Source: Candidatus Tenebribacter burtonii (GTDB lineage Bacteria > Cloacimonadota > Cloacimonadia > Cloacimonadales > TCS61). Taken from it: 42,249 nt of DNA. Location: positions 1-42,249 of the forward strand of contig JAVCCF010000009.1 in NCBI GenBank assembly GCA_030765625.1, given 5' to 3'. The notes below the pieces were generated by a model. It saw nothing but the letters and a program-made list of their open reading frames with translations. It was not told where the DNA came from and did no database searches. The position numbers and the translations under genes were made by a program. Positions 29,857-35,413 of the stretch are shown in pieces (position 1 is the stretch's first letter; each line of letters begins with the position of its first letter).

Positions 29857-29931
29857 CTCACCTCGATCCTCTCCTGCGAGGAGAATGAGAAAAGGATAAT
29901 TATTGTCATTCCCAACTCCGATTGGGAATCT
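29857..29931 (+). repeat. Dispersed intergenic repeat, copy 1
   Basis: CCTCACCTCGATCCTCTCCTGCGAGGAGA...CATTCCCAACTCCGATTGGGAATCT. The last 25 nt are identical to 31806-31830. Confidence 0.8.
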
Positions 29932-31756: not shown

Positions 31757-31830
31757 CCTCACCTGGCATCTTCTGTGAGGAGAGGGAGGAAAGAATGATT
31801 GCTGGCATTCCCAACTCCGATTGGGAATCT
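31757..31830 (+). repeat. Dispersed intergenic repeat, copy 2
   Basis: CCTCACCTGGCATCTTCTGTGAGGAGA...CATTCCCAACTCCGATTGGGAATCT. Same orientation as copy 1. Confidence 0.8.
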
Positions 31831-32932: not shown

Positions 32933-34204
32933 TTAGAGTTCGTCATTTGTGTTTAATATTTCAATATTCAAATCGATATTTTTCATCTCTTCTTTTACTT
33001 TGTTAAGATCATCTCTAACATCATCCAGATCTTCAAGATCAATATGTTTGATCATCTTTATTTTTTCAAATTCATCATGAAAGTCATCGAGGTCTTCAAT
33101 ACTTTTCTCTACACCATCTATCATAATCTTAATCTCACCATCATCAATTGTAACCTCAATATTTTTTTCAGATTTGCTATAATCTCTCTCTCCAATGTTA
33201 ACGGTAATATTTTGTACTTTTCCATCTCTTTCAATTGTGAGGATAAGCTCATCCCCAATTTCTTTGTCTTTTATTGCTTCTCCAATCTCCAGATCTTTTT
33301 CATTTTCTACTGCAATTATGATATCACCATCTTTCAATCCGGCTTTTTCGGCTGGAGATCCTTCAATTACTTCTGTGATTATAGTTTCTATTGTTACTTC
33401 CTCTTCACCATCTTGTATAGTTACTTGCTTGTTTAAATTCAATTGCACACCAATCCACTTATCATTGCCAGGAAGATCATATTGGTAGAATAGGACATTT
33501 TCCGGTGTGTTGAATAAATCAAATGAACCGTCTTTTCCAGAGAAAAAGTAATTTAATTTATCTTCCTTTTCACCCAGAATAATATCGATTTTTTTATTCT
33601 TTTTTCCTCGCAGAATTCCGAGGGTTATTTTGTCTTCCGGTTTGTAATTTTTCAACATTTTCAACAATTGATCTACAGTAAATATCTTTTCATCAGCAAA
33701 GGTTAGAAGCACATCTTCATTTTTCAATCCAGCTTTATCAGCAGGAGAATCTTCCACAACTTCACTGATCATTATTCCAAAAGATTTTTCCAATTTGAAT
33801 TTCTTTTTTGTGTTATCATCCAAATCTTCCAGGAACACACCCATATAGGTTCTTTTTGGAACTTTCTGTATTTTTCTTTCTTCTAAAACCAAGAAACAAA
33901 TATCAGTGCTTTCTCCTCTTTTAAATGTGATTTTAATCCTCTGCTCAGGTTCAAAGAAAGAGAGCATTTTCTTTACTTGATCTATAGTATATATTTTATC
34001 TCCATCGATCATTAAAAGTATATCACCTGCTATTAATCCGGCTTTTGTTGCTGGACTTTCTTCACTAACTTTTTTTATCAGAACACCATATTGTTCTTTT
34101 GAATTTTCACTTAAAACTACTCCCATTCTAACTTTGGATTTTGCGAATAACGGAATACTAATCAACATCGTACTAATTAATGTAATTACTATTGCTTTTT
34201 TCAT
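32933..34204 (-). CDS. Exported protein with three PDZ domains and an acidic C-terminal tail, no protease domain
   Basis: Signal peptide MKKAIVITLISTMLISIPLFA. Three PDZ repeats (KKVSEESPATKAGLIAGDILLMIDG; SEVVEDSPADKAGLKNEDVLLTFAD; TEVIEGSPAEKAGLKDGDIIIAVEN). Confidence 0.9.
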   Translation of the reverse strand: MKKAIVITLISTMLISIPLFAKSKVRMGVVLSENSKEQYGVLIKKVSEESPATKAGLIAGDILLMIDGDKIYTIDQVKKMLSFFEPEQRIKITFKRGESTDICFLVLEERKIQKVPKRTYMGVFLEDLDDNTKKKFKLEKSFGIMISEVVEDSPADKAGLKNEDVLLTFADEKIFTVDQLLKMLKNYKPEDKITLGILRGKKNKKIDIILGEKEDKLNYFFSGKDGSFDLFNTPENVLFYQYDLPGNDKWIGVQLNLNKQVTIQDGEEEVTIETIITEVIEGSPAEKAGLKDGDIIIAVENEKDLEIGEAIKDKEIGDELILTIERDGKVQNITVNIGERDYSKSEKNIEVTIDDGEIKIMIDGVEKSIEDLDDFHDEFEKIKMIKHIDLEDLDDVRDDLNKVKEEMKNIDLNIEILNTNDEL

Positions 34205-34240
34205 TTTTCCCCCATTTGTTCTGTTATACTTCTTTATTGC

Positions 34241-34361
34241 TGGACTTCTCGTCCCGAGAAGTCCACACTGTTTGCTGTTTTCGTTTCGAAAACATTCTTT
34301 TACTTCACTATCAGATCGAAACGATCTGATAAAAACATTTGATTCAATCGAGACGATTGAA
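34241..34361. repeat. Array of four perfect palindromes with TCG-NNN-CGA cores
   Basis: TGGACTTCTCG-TCC-CGAGAAGTCCA (34241-34265); TGTTTTCG-TTT-CGAAAACA (34276-34294); TATCAGATCG-AAA-CGATCTGATA (34309-34331); TTCAATCG-AGA-CGATTGAA (34343-34361). Confidence 0.95.
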
Positions 34362-34389
34362 CCAACTATAACTATAGTAAAAGTTTCAC

Positions 34390-34884
34390 TTAAAAGCTGA
34401 CTTCACGCAGTTGCTTTTTTATCTCCGGTCGATTAAATTCAGAAATAATCATAACAGCTTTTGAATCTTTGGATACATATTTCCGAATTATGTACGTTTT
34501 ATCTTCTTTATATTTTTCAGGATCAATCTTATCTTTCAAGTTTGGATTATGGATAGATGTGTAATAAAATTTACTATTATCCTCAGCAAATTTCGTAAAA
34601 AATTCATCATCCGAATAATTTGCATTGTTAGTTTCCTGAGTAGCTACTCCTTTATTAAAAGCAACTTCATTTACTTTAGACCTGATCTCGGGAAAAATAA
34701 ATAATGAGAGAATGAATACAAACAGACCGCTTGCAAAAGCAATTGAATAGCGGAATTTTCTAATATACTTGCTTTCCCTGCTGTGATATTTTCTTACCAG
34801 TTTGTTTCTCAAAATTTGTTCAAACTGATTATTTTCAATTTTCGGCATTTCCATAGATAATAATTTATTTTCAAGATCTTTCAT
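34390..34884 (-). CDS. Single-pass membrane protein, putative anti-sigma factor
   Basis: N-terminal cytoplasmic-type helix region, one TM segment (YSIAFASGLFVFILSLFIF), C-terminal extracytoplasmic domain. Overlaps the ECF sigma gene. Start taken at the ATG after GGGAGA. Confidence 0.6.
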   Translation of the reverse strand: MKDLENKLLSMEMPKIENNQFEQILRNKLVRKYHSRESKYIRKFRYSIAFASGLFVFILSLFIFPEIRSKVNEVAFNKGVATQETNNANYSDDEFFTKFAEDNSKFYYTSIHNPNLKDKIDPEKYKEDKTYIIRKYVSKDSKAVMIISEFNRPEIKKQLREVSF

Positions 34885-35413
34885 GATCGATCTCCCTTTC
34901 AATCTTCTTTCGTAATTTTTTTAAAATTCTGTGCATTTGAACTTTTACCGTACTTTCTTTCTTTTTCAATATTTCACCGATCTCATTATAACTGAGCTTC
35001 TCGTAAAACCGTAAAGAGATAAGATTCTGTGCATCCAATTTTAACTCAACCATAAATTTTTCAACAATTGAATAATCAATTTTAATTGGTTTTCCTATCG
35101 GCAAATTCCATTCAAAATTATCATGAATCCTTTTTTCGCGTTTCCTTTCATAAAAATACTGACTTAGCTCACTTAAGGCGATACGATATAGCCATGATGA
35201 AAATCCGCAATTTCGTGAATCATAAAAACGGAAAACTGCTAACCGTTTCATCGCTTTAAAAAATACATTAGAAACGATCTCGTTACGCACAGATTCTTCT
35301 TTCACTCTATGAAATATAAAACTATTGATTCTTGGATAATATTTACTATAAAGATAATCAAACTGATTGATATCTTTTTTTGCATTGAGGATCATCTTTC
35401 TTTCTCTATCCAA
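34871..35413 (-). CDS. ECF-type RNA polymerase sigma factor
   Basis: Region 2 FDYLYSKYYPRINSFIFHRV...VFFKAMKRLAVFR; region 4 LDAQNLISLRFYEKLSYNEIGEILKKKESTVKVQMHRILKKLRKKI. Start could be TTG 35413 or ATG 35395. Confidence 0.9.
   Translation of the reverse strand: MDRERKMILNAKKDINQFDYLYSKYYPRINSFIFHRVKEESVRNEIVSNVFFKAMKRLAVFRFYDSRNCGFSSWLYRIALSELSQYFYERKREKRIHDNFEWNLPIGKPIKIDYSIVEKFMVELKLDAQNLISLRFYEKLSYNEIGEILKKKESTVKVQMHRILKKLRKKIEREIDHERS

Follow-up and report, generated by a model that had tools for sequence, protein, structure and literature searches.

A four-hairpin array in Candidatus Tenebribacter burtonii is very probably one copy of a dispersed REPIN/BIME-like element of Candidatus Cloacimonadota

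REP elements are known to stabilise mRNA. What is known of how RAYT transposases recognise and spread them comes, to our knowledge, from a few proteobacterial systems. TnpA_REP acts on GTAG REPs as single-stranded DNA, with the tag serving as a guide and the hairpin tip being recognised (PMC8266576), and a similar action of RAYTs has been proposed for REPINs (PMC3116915). Changing GTAG to GTTG abolished cleavage by S. maltophilia TnpA_REP, and an altered loop sequence impaired cleavage in its REPtron Sm (PMC8266576). The P. putida 607 and P. fluorescens 4255 double inverted repeats reach hundreds of copies (PMC3733652). Some TnpA classes have also been reported to lie next to repeats that lack the GT[AG]G tag (PMC6006769).

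The stretch of DNA analysed here (the window; 42,249 nucleotides of contig JAVCCF010000009.1) contains, at positions 34241-34361, four perfect palindromes, each with a 3-nt loop closed by CG. The original prediction had given them arms of 11, 8, 10 and 8 bp, and they lie exactly where it placed them. Perfect hairpins with arms ≥8 bp and a loop of 3 nt number seven in the window compared with 0.8 expected in Markov-shuffled sequence, and four of the seven fall within the 121-bp array, which puts the palindromes far above chance level. Five occurrences of the motif TCGNNNCGA were counted in the 42 kb, four of them inside the array. Relative to shuffles, the array DNA folds with z-scores of -8.3 and -8.7 on its two strands, and the RNA of the whole gap between the anti-sigma-like and PDZ genes with -6.2; hairpin H1, with a short T run after it, was called terminator-like. 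No window match to the Rfam 15 covariance models was obtained at gathering score. Counted genome-wide, TCGNNNCGA was uninformative alone (183 sites versus 225 for a reversed control), and several of its sites belong to an unrelated attC-like family.

Read on the minus strand, which is that of the sigma/anti-sigma/PDZ genes, the element runs 5'-GTTGG ... CCAGC-3' (Table 1). Its unit of about 128 bp is made of two inverted half-units around a variable spacer, as in a REPIN. Each half-unit has the order 5'-GTTG(G)-hairpin A-GTTT box-hairpin B, and the two become superimposable once the second is read on the other strand; as would be expected of an inverted pair, the model matches both strands of the window copy, the opposite one at 85.9 bits. 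All four hairpins are closed by CG and carry a TYY loop, which in the direction of the half-unit is nearly always TCT, TCC or TTT, and H1 can be extended to cover 34339-34365 if one mismatch or G-T pair is allowed. The TCG-TYY-CGA core and the >> << layout that had been predicted hold across 43 aligned copies, including that of the window. The spacing of 32, 35 and 32 bp, originally presented as symmetric, stands for the window copy by the centres used in that prediction; in the alignment of 43 copies, however, the distance between centres is 29-31 and 31-34 bp inside the halves and 23-48 bp from one half to the other, so that the arrangement is really one of two near-fixed half-units around a variable spacer. 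The left tag was GTAG in one of the 43 copies, placing the element outside the canonical GTAG REP superfamily (in which the foot of the hairpin carries a GT[AG]G tetranucleotide), and its GTTG tag and association with a RAYT separate it from the CGTC REP superfamily (unpaired CGTC tag, no transposase).

Table 1. Features of the four-hairpin element and the neighbouring genes (window positions)
Feature	Position	Strand	Remarks
Whole four-hairpin element	34239..34366	-	R1 match 34239-34368; R2 match 34231-34376, E 6.9e-28
5' tag GTTGG, left half-unit	34362..34366	-	GTTG in 25/43 copies, GYTG in 30/43
Hairpin H1, TTCAATCG-TCT-CGATTGAA, arms 8 bp	34343..34361	- (AGA on +)	Helix 1 of the covariation analysis
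Hairpin H2, TATCAGATCG-TTT-CGATCTGATA, arms 10 bp	34309..34331	- (AAA on +)	Helix 2: 5/7 pairs changed on both sides
Variable central spacer between half-units	34295..34308	.	H2-H3 centre distance 23-48 bp among copies; other distances vary only 2-3 bp
Hairpin H3, TGTTTTCG-AAA-CGAAAACA, arms 8 bp	34276..34294	- (TTT on +)	Helix 3: 6/7 pairs changed on both sides
Hairpin H4, TGGACTTCTCG-GGA-CGAGAAGTCCA, arms 11 bp	34241..34265	- (TCC on +)	Helix 4: 7/10 pairs changed on both sides
Tag of inverted half-unit, GCTGG here, GTTGG in most copies	34239..34243	+	GTT start in 39/43 copies
ECF-type sigma factor gene	34871..35413	-	Pfam Sigma70_r2 and r4
Anti-sigma-like gene, upstream of insertion	34390..34902	-	Orthologues in relatives; small protein, no Pfam match, anti-sigma position
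Triple-PDZ gene, downstream of insertion	32933..34204	-	Pfam PDZ_2, 3 stretches

Covariation was assessed in a sequence-only alignment (A4; 43 copies, 34 base pairs). Pairing was retained in 94.0% of cells, and 22 of the 34 pairs had changed on both sides. Cells changed on both sides numbered 140 compared with 31.6 expected in shuffles (reached in 0 of 500), a significance that the shuffles overstate because the copies are related; as the structure was moreover read from the same copies, neither covariation figure is a probability. Controls in which the partners were slid by 1-3 columns gave 20-46% pairing and 7-28 both-side-changed cells. The excess of compensatory change is very large. Arms drift, yet pairing and loop persist, supporting the proposal that structure rather than primary sequence has been selected. 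The same data bear on whether the palindromes form an array of operators bound cooperatively by protein on double-stranded DNA, a reading suggested by dyads about three helical turns apart in a mirror layout. Arms that change with pairing kept, and loops that stay pyrimidine-rich, are expected of hairpins and not of double-stranded sites, and the central spacing ranges from 23 to 48 bp without helical phasing, leaving an operator extremely improbable.

Searching this genome and its relatives recovered further copies, both in the window genome and across its family. The window genome (G000) carries a degraded four-hairpin copy (C39) and a copy with H1 and H2 only (C157). The first covariance model (R1), made from the window copy, the G004 copy, C39, C157 and one copy from another genus, had matches in 22 of 40 family genomes at E up to 0.01. 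Genome G029 alone gave 77 matches, some in head-to-tail (tandem) arrays, although such counts take in both strands and thus overstate copy number. A second model (R2), built from 43 copies, matched 20 of 125 phylum genomes, 19 of them within the family of the window genome. One element copy was observed in a different family of the same class (G121:C15:64945-65105), which suggests horizontal transfer or deeper ancestry. Copies lie largely outside genes: 40 of 53 fell outside ORFs of at least 120 aa, compared with ~21% of random positions (79% overlap such an ORF), and among the 13 that overlap one, several of the ORFs are apparently made by the repeats themselves. The family is therefore dispersed, extragenic, palindromic and multicopy, as REPs and REPINs are, with only three sites in the window genome. 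Short BLAST matches of the array arms elsewhere in G000 (L034, L036, L037 and weaker ones) were dismissed as chance, the three inspected being without an array.

Two sites allowed presence and absence to be compared. The element at G029:C265, together with ~28 bp of another repeat, is absent from collinear G015, in which the flanks join directly, and at the C39 site a 267-bp insert with the element is present in G000 where the G002 flanks join. No consistent target-site duplication was found at these two sites, and the borders were not clean, inserted DNA of other repeats flanking the element. Other repeats and structured sequences were seen in G000. Just past the C39 copy (L033, about 1760-1860), a sequence (CTGAGAATATACTCTTGAACCTGATCTGGATAATGCCAGCG) resembles a TPP riboswitch by eye. 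Repeated sites of ~120 bp on C180, C9, C22, C2 and C8 (L041, L054, L063, L067, L073) start with CTAATGTTCTGCGTGTGC, end with GACACGCTTGTTAG, contain internal hairpins and are about 1.4-2.6 kb apart where two share a contig; they resemble the attC sites found in integron cassette arrays, and an IntI-like gene below the model cut-off is located at C65:2163-2963.

The window copy is inside the sigma/anti-sigma/PDZ operon, where it is probably transcribed and may, as a secondary effect, influence mRNA ends. The anti-sigma/PDZ neighbourhood is conserved among relatives, and the records in which relatives of the PDZ protein were found carry the annotation Candidatus Cloacimonadota. In four congeners (G001, G002, G003, G009) the orthologous gap is short and has no array. 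Among the loci compared only G000 and G004 have one, and in G004 H1 and H3 are intact while H2 and H4 are broken; this pattern suggests that a common insertion has since decayed, rather than upkeep of a locus-specific device. These comparisons count against the original suggestion that the array is present as an RNA hairpin array tuning operon stoichiometry, i.e. a locus-specific structure that sets the anti-sigma:PDZ protein ratio through processing, stabilising or attenuating. Its placement between co-directional genes, the strong RNA folding of the gap, the terminator-like H1 with its T run and mRNA stabilisation by REP elements elsewhere would all suit such a structure, but array-free orthologous gaps, two hairpins broken in G004 despite the shared insertion, and the same element at unrelated loci make it highly improbable.

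A copy of mobile origin could also have been exapted, its hairpins now acting as a terminator, RNase barrier or mRNA stabiliser for the operon. This does not conflict with the REPIN-like explanation and bears only on what the window copy does at present. In its favour are the operon position, the terminator-like H1, the part that REPs are known to play in mRNA stability and the perfect pairing of all four window hairpins. Such pairing would also follow, however, from a recent insertion or from slow decay, and the loss of two hairpins in the sister genome G004 speaks against a maintained function; we consider exaptation unlikely. Beside the array in the G004 gap (L002:2030-2190) lies a second, unrelated insert of ~150 bp (GTCATCCTGAC...AGATTCTTCG), so the gap seems to collect insertions. 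Elsewhere in the window, positions 6877-29421 of the minus strand form a single ORF of 7514 codons (a giant protein gene), and two copies of another repeat (CCTCACCT...GAGGAGA...CATTCCCAACTCCGATTGGGAATCT; 29858-29930 and 31757-31829) flank a ParA-like gene.

In G029:C177 a 165-aa gene is situated between element copies. The encoded protein matches Pfam Y1_Tnp, and its only significant PDB sequence match is 4er8, E. coli TnpA_REP (E 7e-7). The same structure, bound to a REP hairpin, was the top Foldseek match of an AlphaFold model, which was used as support only because of its low confidence (pLDDT 62). Thirty RAYT-like loci were compared, of which 11 form a clade with this protein at ≥54% identity, the other 19 being at ≤44% apart from one short fragment. 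All 11 clade members match NCBIfam NF047646 (REP_Tyr_transpos; member 1 at 91.5 bits, cut-off 80) and H61-x-H63 (the H-x-H motif) and Y131 are invariant, such that the clade protein has the HUH motif, catalytic tyrosine and curated-model match of a RAYT/TnpA_REP. Element matches were found beside the gene at all 11 clade loci (on both sides in most) and at none of the 19 other RAYT-like loci (Fisher p 1.8e-8, ignoring relatedness); the source copies of R1 had been chosen before the RAYT was seen. Matches were also more numerous in genomes with the clade (Mann-Whitney p 7e-6), while G061 and G035, both incomplete MAGs, have many matches and no clade RAYT.

The outer tags of the element are mutually inverted, and self-complementary TIRs beside tyrosine transposases have been described (PMC3733652), raising the question of whether this is a terminal-inverted-repeat element of a RAYT relative (TIRYT/TIRtron) and not a REP/REPIN. 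The clade proteins, however, best match the REP_Tyr_transpos equivalog and TnpA_REP, and each side of the gene has whole elements, dispersed whole as in REPtrons, instead of one TIR per side; a TIRtron is accordingly very unlikely. The organisation of a REPtron, a RAYT gene flanked by its own repeat family, was found in relatives but not in the window genome. No cognate RAYT was detected in the G000 MAG, which is incomplete, and its RAYT genes on C5, C19, C50 and C77 were rejected as candidates: they fall into other groups, with at best 28% identity to the clade and different flanking inverted repeats. Because G000 is without a recognisable cognate RAYT, its copies are probably left over from mobilisation that took place earlier or in trans. 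These Y1 transposase genes of G000 (L088, C19:22832-23125; L087, C77; L089, C50; L090, C5) are each flanked by a repeat family of their own, GTAGGGACGAT...CCTAC on C19, GCAGG...CCTGC on C77 and longer repeats on C5 and C50; the C19 repeat core occurs at seven places in the genome.

Taken together, the element is dispersed, forms tandem copies, is present or absent at orthologous sites, keeps its pairing by compensatory change and specifically adjoins one RAYT clade. As a small dispersed hairpin repeat that in relatives lies beside its own single-strand transposase gene, the array is best read as a footprint of mobile DNA rather than a control device built for the operon. We conclude that it is very probably a copy of a REPIN/BIME-like element of Candidatus Cloacimonadota, dispersed and non-autonomous, that belongs to a REPtron family. 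The idea of a hairpin-templated mobile palindrome family, one of those originally put forward, was essentially right, the element being dispersed and linked to a REP-type single-strand transposase.

By analogy with TnpA_REP biochemistry, the RAYT (HUH plus tyrosine) would bind the element hairpins as single-stranded DNA, use the GTTG tag as a guide and the TYY loops or hairpin tips as the recognition site, nick beside tag and loops, and move the element. Since cleavage was lost upon changing GTAG to GTTG in S. maltophilia, use of the GTTG tag is something we only infer. It is conceivable, if still somewhat doubtful, that this is a REPtron lineage with paired double-hairpin half-sites, in which recognition occurs through CG-TYY-CG tips and a GTTG guide and the stems are free to drift with compensation. 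Substrate recognition of this kind would differ from that of the systems examined to date, which have a single hairpin and depend on GTAG. The family combines four hairpins and a non-canonical tag with tandem arrays, copies by the dozen and clear cognate RAYTs, and offers natural covariation data on what the transposase reads. It also carries RAYT/REP pairing into an uncultured phylum, and it accounts for palindrome arrays that might otherwise be taken for regulatory RNAs.

In a mainly open-access literature search, we found no description of REP/RAYT systems in Cloacimonadota, nor of a family with four hairpins and a GTTG tag. The original prediction knew no named element with this pattern; REP/REPIN/BIME supplies one, although we came across no description of this family itself. 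REPINs and BIMEs mobilised by RAYT/TnpA_REP (PMC3116915, PMC8266576) are likewise extragenic and dispersed. Their two hairpin-bearing units are inverted around a spacer and form clusters in tandem, the cognate RAYT has the repeats on either side, and pairing is kept despite sequence drift. They have two hairpins and a GTAG tag, whereas the element of the phylum Cloacimonadota has four hairpins (two per half), GTTG and a uniform CG-TYY-CG tip throughout. At the level of the single repeat, the S. maltophilia REPtron Sm (group 3 RAYT, PMC8266576) shares a perfect palindrome with a 3-nt interruption and a tetranucleotide directly before it, and differs in having one hairpin per REP, a GCT loop and a GTAG tag. 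Four hairpins are also present in the A. tumefaciens CGTC-3 dimers (PMC3733652), where a REP dimer is combined with two stem-loops at the spacer ends; there the tag is CGTC and no transposase genes were associated with CGTC repeats in that study, in contrast to an element that flanks a RAYT clade. The P. putida 607 and P. fluorescens 4255 repeats (PMC3733652) similarly join a REP to a further stem-loop, are dispersed and occur beside a tyrosine transposase gene, but pair a degenerate GTAG-1 unit with an unrelated stem-loop, whereas both Cloacimonadota hairpins have the TCG-TYY-CGA tip. Given these partial four-hairpin precedents and the existence of repeats without GT[AG]G, the element is a variation on a known REP/RAYT theme: well-supported mobile-element biology and a testable variant REPtron, not an operon-specific regulator.
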